DNA of 64,000 bases, taken from Corallococcus praedator (GTDB lineage Bacteria; Myxococcota; Myxococcia; Myxococcales; Myxococcaceae). Numbering within the stretch: position 1 is the stretch's first letter; every line of letters begins with the position of its first letter. Positions 11,983-16,285 of this stretch are shown piece by piece. The position numbers were made by a program, and so were the translations under genes. The notes under the pieces were generated by a model. The model was not told the origin of the DNA. It made no database searches and saw only the letters and a list, made by a program, of their open reading frames with translations. Where the stretch lies: assembly GCF_003612125.1 (NCBI RefSeq), contig NZ_RAWI01000006.1:1-64000 (forward strand), written 5' to 3'.

Positions 11983-12033
11983 GCCGCCTCCTGCGTTTCG
12001 CGCCCATGGGCTGCGGTAGGGACGAAGGCGGAA

Positions 12034-12189
12034 GCAAAGAAGGATCGCACGCACTGGCAGGATGGGGCCCGGCTGCTGCGCAGGACGTTCGGGCTGAACG
12101 TGTTCGCCTGCGAGAGGTGTGAAGGCAGGCGCCCGGTGCTTGTGTACTTGACGGCACCCAACAGGAGCGCGCTATTGAGGAAGCGATGA
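12034..12189 (+). pseudogene. 3' remnant of IS91-type transposase
   Basis: A frame ending in TGA at 12187-12189 reads RTHWQDGARLLRRTFGLNVF, then ACERCEGRRPVLVYLTAP. This is the Cys-rich C-terminal end of the IS91-like (Y2) transposases that are common in myxobacteria (usual pattern: W..LLRR.F.LDVL.C..CGG). Only about 50 codons remain, and the catalytic domain is absent. It lies immediately upstream of the AT-rich three-gene cassette, so it is a plausible scar of the element that delivered or rearranged it. The family assignment is from motif memory. Confidence 0.6.
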
Positions 12190-12220
12190 CTGTTTCCGGC
12201 GGTGGCGATAGTCTCAGGGT

Positions 12221-13435
12221 ATGTCGCCTCCTTCCGCTCTCGTCGTTTCCCGCTACCGCGCCTTTGCCGGTGAGGAGACGCTGCCCCTACGACCGCTTAC
12301 ACTGCTCTACGGGCGCAACAATTCCGGCAAGAGCGCTCTTGCTCGCGCACTTGCCTTCATTGGGGCCTCCCTGTCAGAGGATGCGCCTAGTGCGTTGGTC
12401 ACCCCACGTGAGGTTATCCGCGAGGGGGCCTTTACGGACCTCGCTTGGCAAGGGGACGCAGGCGACTATTCCTTCGACTTGGGACTTCGCTGGAACGATG
12501 GGAAGGTACGGGAAGTCCGCTACACCTTAGACGGTGGCTCAGGTCGTTCGACCTACGTCAAGGAGCTATTTCTCCGAGGCGAGGGTGGTGAACTGCTATG
12601 GGCAGGTGTCGCGCCGCCCAACCGCCCGATGCTCCCACAGGGAGAGTACGGCGGTGGTGAACTGCGCCTTGTTGGACTGGTGCCTCGGCATTCGGAAGTG
12701 CCTGTCCTCCAAGAGTTGGCGACGCGCATGGATGCCCTCCGTGGGCGCGTGCAATGGATTGATGGTGTGCGAGTACGCCCCAAACGCGACATTCCACGTA
12801 CTGGAACCACCCTCGTGAATCTGGCTACAGATGGTAGCAATGCTGCCGATATTCTCGTCGAGCGACCTGAACTTGTTGAGGAGGCTCGGCGATTCTATGC
12901 AGATCTCACCCCCCCCCGTGATCTTGAGGTTAAAGAGGTACTTGAGTCGAGCCATCGAATCACGCTCAACCCCAAGAGCCAGGGAAGTTGGAGAATCGAC
13001 CTTGTAGACACTGGCGAGGGTATGGCTCAGGTGCTTCCAGTGTTGGTGGCCGCGACACTTGCGGCGCGCGAAGCGCCTAGTGGCATTCTTGCTGTGGAGG
13101 AGCCGGAAAGCCATCTTCATCCTGACGCGCAGGCTGCTCTAGCTCGCTATCTTTGCGACATAGCGGCGCGCCCAGCGCCTCCGACGTTGGTAATTGAAAC
13201 ACATAGTCGGGTATTCCTATTGGGGGTGCAGCTTGCTGTTGCTGCAGGGCGTTTGCCTCCTGAGCGCGTCGGATTGGCATGGATTGATCAGGACGCGGTT
13301 GGGCGCAGTAGTATAACTGCTGTTCAGTTAGAGTCTAGTGGTCATCCGCGTGCTGGTTGGCCGGTCGCAGCCCTCGCAGAAGACCTACGTCTTGCCAGGG
13401 AACTGGCTATGCTTGATCTAAAGCGTCGGGACTGA
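12221..13435 (+). CDS. AAA/ABC-type ATPase with DUF3696-like C-terminus
   Basis: 404 residues. Walker A YGRNNSGKS at about 30-38, the ABC signature-like DTGEGMAQVLP near 263, Walker B ILAVEEPES near 289-296 with a following D-loop (HLHPDAQ), and the switch histidine in IETHS near 328. The last 80 residues (VGLAWIDQDAVGRSSITAVQ, then GW PVAAL) match the DUF3696 pattern. There is no fused nuclease domain, and the length is that of a stand-alone SMC/RecF-like motor. Such ATPases partner with nucleases in OLD, Gabija, PARIS and related defence systems. It starts the AT-rich operon, and the next gene begins 2 bases after its stop. The ribosome site is weak. Confidence 0.9.
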   Translation: MSPPSALVVSRYRAFAGEETLPLRPLTLLYGRNNSGKSALARALAFIGASLSEDAPSALVTPREVIREGAFTDLAWQGDAGDYSFDLGLRWNDGKVREVRYTLDGGSGRSTYVKELFLRGEGGELLWAGVAPPNRPMLPQGEYGGGELRLVGLVPRHSEVPVLQELATRMDALRGRVQWIDGVRVRPKRDIPRTGTTLVNLATDGSNAADILVERPELVEEARRFYADLTPPRDLEVKEVLESSHRITLNPKSQGSWRIDLVDTGEGMAQVLPVLVAATLAAREAPSGILAVEEPESHLHPDAQAALARYLCDIAARPAPPTLVIETHSRVFLLGVQLAVAAGRLPPERVGLAWIDQDAVGRSSITAVQLESSGHPRAGWPVAALAEDLRLARELAMLDLKRRD

Positions 13436-13437
13436 AT

Positions 13438-14613
13438 ATGCGCATTTTAATCGACCGCGCACTGTTTGCTGCGAAATCCGAGATTGAGGCGCTCGCCCTT
13501 GTGGACCTCCTTACCACGGTTGCTCGCGATACTCATTCCCTCCACTCAGTCATTACCGACCCTCCCTATATGCAAGGCGAGGATAATGGTCCAATTGATG
13601 CTTGGTTGAATTATCGTGACCCAATCGAGGCACGCGCTTTTAGATCGCTGCTGGCTAATGGATTGCTTGTCAATGCTGGACGCTCAGTTGGTGTGGGAGT
13701 GTCGGATTCACTGAAGCCGCGACGCTGGCACTTGGAGGGATGGTTGTCGGTCCGCGTAGAGCGCCGGGAAGCAAGCGACTGGAGAAGTCGTAGCTTAACT
13801 ATTGGCGATGCAGTTGATCTGCTTAGAGAGCCAATTCATCTGGTTCTTGAGAACGAGCGGACGGAACTCGCTTTTGTCGGCCTGCTGGCTGCCCCGACTG
13901 ACGCGAAAACGCTGCGCGAATTAGTCGAAGGGCCTGGGAAGACCAAGGTCCACAGTGGTGGCGGTGGCGAAGCCAAGAAATGGATTGAGGCATTAATAGA
14001 CGGTCCGCCAACTGCTGCTGTCTGGCGTAAGTTATTGCGGGCTTGGGTGCTTTTTGACAAGGATGCTGGGAATGCGGATGCCTGTCATCTGTCCAAGAGT
14101 GCCAGCGACCTTGTCGATCTATGCGAGAAGGTGGTGGAAATCTACGGCAATGGGTTGTCGTGGATTTGTCTTCTCAGGCGTGAACTTGAGTCATATGTTC
14201 CTGATACCGGGCTTGCAGCAGAGGCCCTCAAAGGGCAACAGGATTTTGTTGGCCATGTTGCTTCATGGCGCAAAGATCCGGAGAGAGAGCACTGGGCTTG
14301 GTCGCTGGATCTTAAGAAGGGACTTCGAGGCGACCTCCATGTGGATGTAAGCGACGCAGTCCGCACGCTTCTCAAGGATTCTAGAAACAAGCATCCTCTA
14401 GAGGCGCATATGCTCAAACTCCCCTTTGCAGGGATCTCTTCTCCGGCGGAACTTAGTGCCTTGAAGTATGGGTTGGGTGATCGCTTGGGCGAGGCTCTTC
14501 GTGCAACGCCTCCGCGGCAGTGGGCTGCCGATCTTTCCACGGAGTACGACCGTGGCCCTCATGATCAAGTCCCTCGACTCGCCTTCGTTCAGTCTTTTTT
14601 AGATCGGATGTAG
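13438..14613 (+). CDS. uncharacterised protein with TOPRIM-like motifs, defence operon gene 2
   Basis: 391 residues, of no family I can name with certainty. Ordered acidic motifs suggest a TOPRIM or DUF4435-like nuclease fold: LVLENERTELAF (acidic residues 138 and 140), then WVLFDKDAGNAD (Asp207 and Asp209), then LRRELESYVP (248-255). The last resembles the RReiEnYL motif that follows the DxD in OLD-type and DUF4435 TOPRIM proteins. The N-terminal 130 residues are unassigned and contain VITDPPYMQG, which resembles a DNA-methylase NPPY motif but without supporting motifs. Its start follows the ATPase stop by 2 bases and its stop overlaps or abuts the DUF262 start, so the three proteins are probably made in fixed ratio. 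Base composition is clearly AT-richer than the flanks. Confidence 0.82.
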   Translation: MRILIDRALFAAKSEIEALALVDLLTTVARDTHSLHSVITDPPYMQGEDNGPIDAWLNYRDPIEARAFRSLLANGLLVNAGRSVGVGVSDSLKPRRWHLEGWLSVRVERREASDWRSRSLTIGDAVDLLREPIHLVLENERTELAFVGLLAAPTDAKTLRELVEGPGKTKVHSGGGGEAKKWIEALIDGPPTAAVWRKLLRAWVLFDKDAGNADACHLSKSASDLVDLCEKVVEIYGNGLSWICLLRRELESYVPDTGLAAEALKGQQDFVGHVASWRKDPEREHWAWSLDLKKGLRGDLHVDVSDAVRTLLKDSRNKHPLEAHMLKLPFAGISSPAELSALKYGLGDRLGEALRATPPRQWAADLSTEYDRGPHDQVPRLAFVQSFLDRM

Positions 14614-14615
14614 TG

Positions 14616-16178
14616 ATGGAACGGAAGATGTTTGATACCCCTGTGTTGCCTCGGTTGGAGACAATCCTTGCAGAAGTGAAGTCCGGCGATTTGATTGTCC
14701 CAGAGTTTCAGCGTCCCTTTGTCTGGGATGATGACCGACGCCTGACTTTACTGGATAGCATAGTTAAGGGCATGCCCATCGGCAGCTTACTCGTCTGGCG
14801 CACGAATAGGCGTGACCTTCATACCTATAAGAAGGTTGGTGGGGTTCGACTTGGGGGCGCGCGCAAGGGTGATGAGAAGGTGAACTACCTTATTGATGGC
14901 CATCAGCGGATATCGACCCTCTTCGGCGCACTGTACTCGGGTGATCGTGAGCCGACTAGTGACGATAATGTACGCTGGCCGCTGTATTACGAGCTAGGAG
15001 CGGATAATCGCCCTGCTTTTCGTGTGCCTCCGCGGCGAAGGAGTGTGCCAAGCAACTGGCTGCCGCTCAATATACTGCTCGACGGTGATAAACTTTTCGA
15101 TTTTACTCAGCAATTGCGCCAAGGTGGCAAGCGGGAGTTGGCTAAGGAGGCGGAGCGTTTGGCTAATGTTTTTAGAGATTATATCATCCCTATTGTTCCT
15201 CTGATAACTGAAGAGTTGGATGTGGTTACGGATGCGTTTGTGCGCATCAACAGCCAAGGCAAAGGCATGAGTGAGGCTCATATGCTGCGAGCACTCACCC
15301 ACGCAGGGGGAGTTGATACGGATCGTTATTTCGCGGACGTTCGTGCCCGCTTGGAGCCTCTCGGTTGGGGGGGGCTGGACGCACAGATTCTAGTCAACGT
15401 TCTTAAGGCGCAACTTGATTTGGATGTCTATGCGGCTGGCGTACGCGGTCTGCACGCGAAGCTGTTGGAGGACCCGGCGCCACTGAAGAAGCTCGCGAGT
15501 GTGCTAGTCGAGACGGTGGAGTTTTTGGCCGCTATTGGGGTTCGCGGACCCGGCGCACTCCCATATACATATCAACTGGTCACGCTGGCAACGCTGGTAG
15601 CGCGGTTTCCAGGCAAGCTGTTGAAACCTAAAATCCATAAGCGCCTGCGAAATTGGTTCTGGGTTACGACGTATACAGAATATTTTTCAGGTAGCACTGG
15701 TAGTCGTATTCGAGATGAGATTGATGGGCTGGCTGGGGAGTTGGATGGAGGTTCTCCTTTGAAACGCGAGCCTGTTCCAGTCAAGCCACTTACGGAAATT
15801 CGGATGTCTACTGTTCGTGCTCGTGCGTTCCTTCTGTTCATGGCGGGGCTTCCTGAGCATGAGAGCGCATGTCAGAGCCGGCAAGAGTGGTTGGGCACAG
15901 GTGATACAAGGGCGGTACCCAGCCTTCTTTCTAGTACAACGGGAGTGGATCCCGGCAATCGTGTTATCGCAAATCCAGCGGAGTTGAGAACCCTGCGAAA
16001 AGCTATTCAAGAGAATGAGGTTTCGCCCACGATGGCTGACGAATTCGCCATTCCTTTGGGGGCCCTTCGCAATCTGCAGGATGAAGACAAATTCTTGCTT
16101 GAGCGTAGGAAGTGGTTGAGGGAGAAGGAAAGGCTGTTTATTGAGGGATTTGGTCTTTCGGTGAGTGACAGCGAGTAG
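14616..16178 (+). CDS. DUF262 (GmrS/ParB-like) protein, defence operon gene 3
   Basis: 520 residues from the ATG at 14616. A GTG at 14613 overlaps the preceding TAG, so coupling holds either way. The DUF262 hallmarks are all present: VPEFQRPFVWDDDRR at about 28-42, the nucleotide-binding YLIDGHQRISTLFGAL near 91-106 (usual DGQQR), and DAFVRINSQGKGMS near 206-219. The C-terminal half is helical and shows no HNH motif of the DUF1524 kind, unlike full GmrSD nucleases. DUF262 domains bind NTPs and regulate or deliver nucleases against modified phage DNA. With the ATPase and the TOPRIM-like protein this makes a plausible three-part anti-phage system. Confidence 0.92.
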   Translation: MERKMFDTPVLPRLETILAEVKSGDLIVPEFQRPFVWDDDRRLTLLDSIVKGMPIGSLLVWRTNRRDLHTYKKVGGVRLGGARKGDEKVNYLIDGHQRISTLFGALYSGDREPTSDDNVRWPLYYELGADNRPAFRVPPRRRSVPSNWLPLNILLDGDKLFDFTQQLRQGGKRELAKEAERLANVFRDYIIPIVPLITEELDVVTDAFVRINSQGKGMSEAHMLRALTHAGGVDTDRYFADVRARLEPLGWGGLDAQILVNVLKAQLDLDVYAAGVRGLHAKLLEDPAPLKKLASVLVETVEFLAAIGVRGPGALPYTYQLVTLATLVARFPGKLLKPKIHKRLRNWFWVTTYTEYFSGSTGSRIRDEIDGLAGELDGGSPLKREPVPVKPLTEIRMSTVRARAFLLFMAGLPEHESACQSRQEWLGTGDTRAVPSLLSSTTGVDPGNRVIANPAELRTLRKAIQENEVSPTMADEFAIPLGALRNLQDEDKFLLERRKWLREKERLFIEGFGLSVSDSE

Positions 16179-16243
16179 TTCTCTAGCCTTCAAATTGAAA
16201 GTATTTCGGGAGAGTGGCGAAGTGATTCGCCTCCGTCCCAGGC

Positions 16244-16275
16244 GGTCCCCGGCGCCGTCATGGCACCGGGGGACC
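16244..16275. terminator. GC-rich hairpin between convergent genes
   Basis: GGTCCCCGG at 16244-16252 pairs with CCGGGGGACC at 16266-16275, with a one-base bulge. It lies between the DUF262 stop and the stop of the convergent sugar dehydrogenase gene. Position and symmetry suit a bidirectional terminator. No T-run follows, so it may not be Rho-independent. Confidence 0.45.
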
Positions 16276-16285
16276 CGGTTGCTGC

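Follow-up and report, generated by a model that had tools for sequence, protein, structure and literature searches.

A horizontally acquired three-gene cassette of Corallococcus praedator and its proposed place in the candidate system PDC-M55

The first 64,000 nt of contig NZ_RAWI01000006.1 of Corallococcus praedator (this whole stretch is referred to as the window) include three closely packed genes, and the question raised by the locus is whether they make up one imported anti-invader system, which known system it resembles and how it might work. All three lie on the + strand and encode a protein classed from its sequence as an OLD/AriA/NsnB-type ABC ATPase (gene A, nt 12221-13435, 404 aa), a predicted TOPRIM nuclease subunit (gene B, nt 13438-14613, 391 aa) and a DUF262 protein of the GmrS/BrxU type (gene C, nt 14613-16178, 521 aa). 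The spacing described in an earlier note on this DNA was recovered with the ORFs: A and B are 2 bases apart, and the TAG stop of B overlaps the GTG start of C by 1 base. An alternative start for C is possible at ATG 14616. The three ORFs are intact, as are the predicted active sites of A and B and the NTP site of C. The start of the cassette, previously put at nt 12190, is corrected to about nt 11988 if the insertion is meant, or to nt 12221 for the operon.

That the cassette is richer in AT than either flank was reproduced. Its GC content is 55.4%, whereas the other 4-kb intervals of the window average 69.7% (SD 1.4, minimum 66.9), and its genes have GC3 values of 0.53-0.55 versus 0.88-0.94 in the flanking genes. 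A congener (G030, contig C370, L152) has an empty site at this place, its two flanks being joined by 70 bp; homology to this genome ends on the left at window position 11987 and resumes on the right at 16269, and in three further congeners without the cassette at this place (G021, G024 and G025) right-flank homology resumes at 16234-16246. From these end points the inserted segment, consisting of a transposase remnant and the three genes, therefore spans nt 11988-16233 (about 4.25 kb, no strand assigned). The remnant (nt 12001-12189, + strand; frame translation GARLLRRTFGLNVFACERCEGRRPVLVYLTAP) bears out the transposase scar reported upstream of the genes, as its translation resembles the C-terminus of a zinc-binding transposase, probably an IS91-like one. 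For part of its DNA (nt 12041-12160), matches, mostly at 75-85%, were found in many places across the genus, which suggests many decayed copies of one element, and the remnant predates or accompanies insertion of the cassette. Copies of the same stretch are also found at several other places in the window's own genome. The terminator-like hairpin noted downstream (nt 16242-16278, - strand) is real, with a fold energy of -33.2 kcal/mol (z -3.1), but is not part of the cassette; it lies in ancestral flank DNA, beginning at nt 16234-16246, that is common to the cassette-less congeners, and so represents the terminator region of the convergent flank gene. The B profile is present in 7 of 195 genomes of the phylum, and a search of 96 genomes of the family with the B protein of the window hit that protein or a relative in 4. 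The empty site, the GC deficit and this patchy presence, together with nearest relatives outside the family, support horizontal acquisition.

A search of the three proteins together with PADLOC returned PDC-M55A, PDC-M55B and PDC-M55C as the best matches, in that order (5.4e-47 over the full length, 1.4e-9 and 1.1e-77, respectively). The match of gene B covers positions 85-259 of the 315 in the PDC-M55B profile, and all 69 of the B sequences scanned match that profile. Judged by E-values and gene order, the three genes belong to PDC-M55 as a divergent member; PADLOC lists this system as a computational candidate with no function given, and no mention of it was found in the literature searched. 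The C profile retrieved 207 relatives from a collection of species representatives, and in 70 of the best 80 loci, which were those examined, A, B and C occur on one strand in the same order, with spacings mostly of -17 to +6 (A-B) and -4 to +26 (B-C). These loci come from Myxococcota, Gammaproteobacteria, Betaproteobacteria, Actinomycetota, Verrucomicrobia, Bacteroidota and others. Across these large distances and phyla the three proteins co-evolve, with tree-distance correlations of 0.915 (A-B), 0.943 (A-C) and 0.863 (B-C) and a permutation maximum of 0.14. The nearest kin of the window's cassette are in Polyangium and Sorangium, followed by Chromatiaceae (purple sulfur bacteria), and not in Corallococcus, Archangium or Pyxidicoccus; its B shares 60% identity with the Polyangium protein and at most 28% with those of other Myxococcaceae. 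Of 69 relatives, 63 have a cassette that is poorer in GC than its own flanks. Distribution, co-varying trees, low GC relative to the flanks and the identity of the nearest kin together indicate that the three genes are inherited as a unit and have been transferred horizontally more than once.

Corallococcus llansteffanensis has another such cassette, which is distant from that of the window. It lies (L020:1913-9761) between HslV/HslU-like ORFs and a tyrosine recombinase-like ORF, at a site that differs from the window's. A search of plasmids with B gave no match, while annotated phages gave two weak C-like matches and no full cassette. Among viral contigs there was one A-B-C locus (L158, IMG/VR), which is identical to a locus of Azospirillum sp. 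B21 (L061); this locus was not counted as carriage by a phage, the nearby ORFs including no obvious phage genes. A defence island in the window was likewise discarded, the strong matches being mostly to generic kinase models (PD-T4-6 and other kinase models). In the flanks of 38 related loci (118 ORFs), single proteins match various defence and mobile-element families (type IV restriction, PsyrTA, NsnA, DRT, DpdF, resolvase, IS66 and pSAM2-type RepSA), and others are housekeeping genes; in this uncontrolled comparison the matches were not taken as proof.

Protein A carries a Walker A motif (G31xN33xxG36K37S38), a signature-like sequence (D263xGxGxxQxLP), a Walker B motif (EEPE, E293) and an H-loop (ETHS, H328), and motif conservation over 69 sequences shows Walker A, Walker B and the H-loop to be intact. 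After PDC-M55A its PADLOC matches are NsnB (2.8e-34, the best named relative) and AriA (2.7e-19), and its Pfam matches are AAA_21/AAA_15, in keeping with the SMC/OLD-like ATPase proposed earlier. The more specific label of a DUF3696-type ATPase had to be dropped, since Pfam DUF3696 has no match in A, whereas a genuine local Menshen NsnB does match it.

Protein B matches no Pfam family, PADLOC models of AriB do not match it at E<=1, and a search of its profile against PDB sequences gave no TOPRIM protein and no credible match. Its AlphaFold2 model, built from the 69-sequence alignment, has a pLDDT of 94.8 and is predicted to comprise an N-terminal domain (residues 1-127) and an OLD-type TOPRIM/helical domain (128-391). 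The VIA-align 2 lists mainly cover residues 33-391 of B (and 3-385 of C), and for B the top five rows are all TOPRIM domains of OLD proteins (6nk8, 6njv, 6njw, 6njx and 6p74; Z 8.3, 7.3, 7.2, 7.1 and 6.4). The best of them, 6nk8, aligns over 175 residues at 3.9 A with a Z of 8.3 that is near the background level of the tool; lumazine synthases come next (Z about 6), and AriB (8ux9, Z 5.3; 8v46, Z 5.0), the TOPRIM protein of retron-Eco2 and GajA stand lower in the list. Foldseek E-values are weak, the best AriB row having 0.067. E138, D207, D209, R248 and G174-G175 are each present in 69/69 sequences, position 143 is acidic (D/E) in all 69 (E143 in the window), E251 occurs in 67/69 with D in the other two, and K293 in 67/69. 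In Bp OLD, two-metal catalysis uses the set E400, E404, D455, D457, E508 and K562 (PMC6755086), and E138, E143, D207, D209, E251 and K293 of B follow the order of that set. The guess of a TOPRIM-like middle protein, made from the sequence, is thus supported by predicted structure, and B is modelled as an OLD-type TOPRIM nuclease.

An ATPase and a TOPRIM protein on split genes recall AriA and AriB of PARIS, in which AriA controls the TOPRIM nuclease AriB (PMC12839542), and AriB is a two-metal tRNase (PMC12409363). The cassette might then be an abortive system of the PARIS kind, in which A (with C) would detect a phage protein and free B, and host tRNA rather than DNA would be cleaved. The AriA match of A and the presence of AriB among the fold matches of B speak for such a system. 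It is nevertheless on the unlikely side, as the top structural matches of B are OLD DNA nucleases, NsnB outscores AriA as the PADLOC match of A, PARIS has no DUF262 partner, and B has an extra N-terminal domain of 127 residues while the catalytic glutamate of AriB is E26.

Protein C, by its Pfam match to GmrSD_N (5.5e-24) and the NTP-binding motif DG[HQV]QR in 69/69 sequences, is the DUF262 protein that had been expected in third place. Its AlphaFold2 model (pLDDT 93) aligns over its length with BrxU (7p9k; 466 residues, Z 16.3), although domains are strongly shifted, and the C-terminal domain of SspE matches its C-terminal part at Z 9.0; the PADLOC match to NsnA is weak (9.5e-8). An HNH motif of the DHIYP type, the meaning of which is given in PMC8565348, occurs in 0/69 C sequences. 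Protein C is accordingly modelled as a BrxU/SspE-like DUF262 protein that is without its HNH nuclease motif, and for this reason B is probably the only nuclease of the cassette. In three loci of Myxococcaceae, A and B are kept and form their own clades, and the third gene (L022:10459-11631, L023:8400-9557 and L024:8185-9333) is shorter and encodes a degenerate DUF262 protein that lacks DG(Q/H)QR and FQRxFxW and carries CxxC...GCQxD and RLHTPGYERAR elements. The retention of A and B beside this short variant suggests that the effector, B, stays constant and that C, as a sensor or regulator, can be replaced.

Two other sets of DUF262 proteins were seen. A further gene, the product of which is about 28% identical to C, is present at G000:C420:19922-20896 and in 15 further genomes, which makes all of those searched in the genus, and looks like a core gene that was not horizontally acquired. 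DUF262 proteins of 530-575 aa without A or B, often with RDPKP near the N-terminus (L079, L091, L094, L102 and L111), are possibly an independent DUF262 family.

The likeness to BrxU, a restriction enzyme for modified cytosine, raises the prospect of type IV restriction, in which C would recognise modified phage DNA as BrxU and GmrSD do and recruit the A+B nuclease, with no cell suicide. An intact NTP motif in a protein that has no HNH motif, and that therefore needs a partner nuclease, would fit. This explanation is doubtful, however, as no recognition pocket was identified in C, and the short variant, with CxxC and no NTP motif, implies that something other than DNA modification could be the trigger.

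The reading that is favoured, and which is held to be somewhat better than an even bet, is that these genes, acquired horizontally, make up a complete anti-invader system of three components, in which A and B form a split OLD protein gated by C. By analogy with AriA-AriB, A and B would assemble into a split OLD nuclease complex, A holding B inactive. C would sense a cue of infection, either modified or foreign nucleic acid or a nucleotide state, and by NTP binding or hydrolysis would license A to release B, which would then cleave DNA (as OLD and GajA do) or tRNA (as does AriB) by two-metal catalysis. Complex formation, gating, trigger and substrate, as well as the anti-phage activity itself, are steps that we infer from the components. 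It is also proposed, with more hesitation and as an idea that may well prove wrong, that PDC-M55 represents a widespread class of immunity with a new mechanism, whereby a DUF262 NTPase devoid of nuclease activity serves as a sensor that can be exchanged and gates a split OLD nuclease; if so, the short variant, with its degenerate NTP site and CxxC element, would be a case of the sensor having been swapped while A and B stayed constant.

That the genes are not concerned with phage at all, and instead act against plasmids, in addiction or under stress, or are the decaying passenger of a transposon, is improbable. The transposase remnant adjoins the cassette, other defence genes are absent from the window and the defence function is itself a proposal, all of which would suit such a reading. 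Against this, the ORFs and predicted active sites are undamaged, co-evolution of A, B and C extends over large distances and phyla, and every component has close relatives that act in anti-phage systems. Membership in Menshen (NsnABC), with an NsnC that has diverged or been replaced, is suggested by the matches of A to NsnB and, weakly, of C to NsnA, and a 2025 study of domain polymorphism in Menshen (reference 74 of PMC12839542) may overlap with the present analysis. This reading is very improbable and was dismissed, as B matches no NsnC, the gene order differs, A is without DUF3696 and C is nearer to BrxU/HEC-05 than to NsnA.

PDC-M55 was previously catalogued by PADLOC as a name only. The model-based placement of its unannotated middle subunit among OLD-type TOPRIM nucleases, and the finding that its DUF262 subunit has lost the HNH motif, together turn the name into a testable model with B as the nuclease, A as the gate and C as the sensor. 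The occurrence in several phyla, conserved gene order, co-evolving subunits and GC-poor islands suggest a common system that is missing from the experimental literature searched, and one that links two large themes of defence, OLD/PARIS and GmrSD/BrxU.

In comparison with known systems, the closest is PDC-M55 itself, since three adjacent genes match M55A, M55B and M55C in the same order, the difference being that the window's B is divergent and covered in part by the M55B profile. Menshen shares an NsnB-related ATPase, a DUF262 protein and a three-gene layout, but its order is DUF262-ATPase-NsnC and that of the cassette ATPase-TOPRIM-DUF262, and C is long and BrxU-like. The middle subunit is unrelated to NsnC, no PADLOC model of which matches gene B at E<=1, and hhalign of B with three NsnC sequences gave a probability of 0.3%. 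Of the two possibilities raised in the earlier note, a Menshen-like member and a relative with a different middle subunit, it is the second that agrees with these results. Genuine Menshen operons, in NsnA-NsnB-NsnC order, occur in two congeners and in another member of the family (L026:3410-6789, L027:5379-9819 and L028:6689-9981), and their NsnC proteins end in a conserved WHxKxExHxxRxHxHP...HLPLP motif. With Gabija GajA and OLD the cassette has in common the ATPase family and the TOPRIM catalytic set, but it splits these parts into two genes, and its partner is a DUF262 protein where Gabija has the UvrD-like helicase GajB and OLD has none; the cassette contains no GajB-like helicase, and the adjoining genes are flank genes common to the empty site. 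Like the DUF262-DUF1524 proteins BrxU, GmrSD and SspE, C aligns along BrxU and keeps DG(Q/H)QR, but it differs from them in lacking HNH DHIYP in all 69 sequences and in belonging to a unit of three genes, one of which encodes a TOPRIM protein. PARIS, a proposed class 4 OLD system, also has an OLD-type ABC ATPase and a TOPRIM nuclease on separate adjacent genes, with AriA models matching A below M55A and NsnB and with AriB in the fold list of B, whereas the cassette has an additional conserved DUF262 gene and a B protein that has an N-terminal domain and fits the OLD TOPRIM better. Because of this extra gene and the lack of an AriB sequence match the cassette is not filed as PARIS, but it may work like PARIS.
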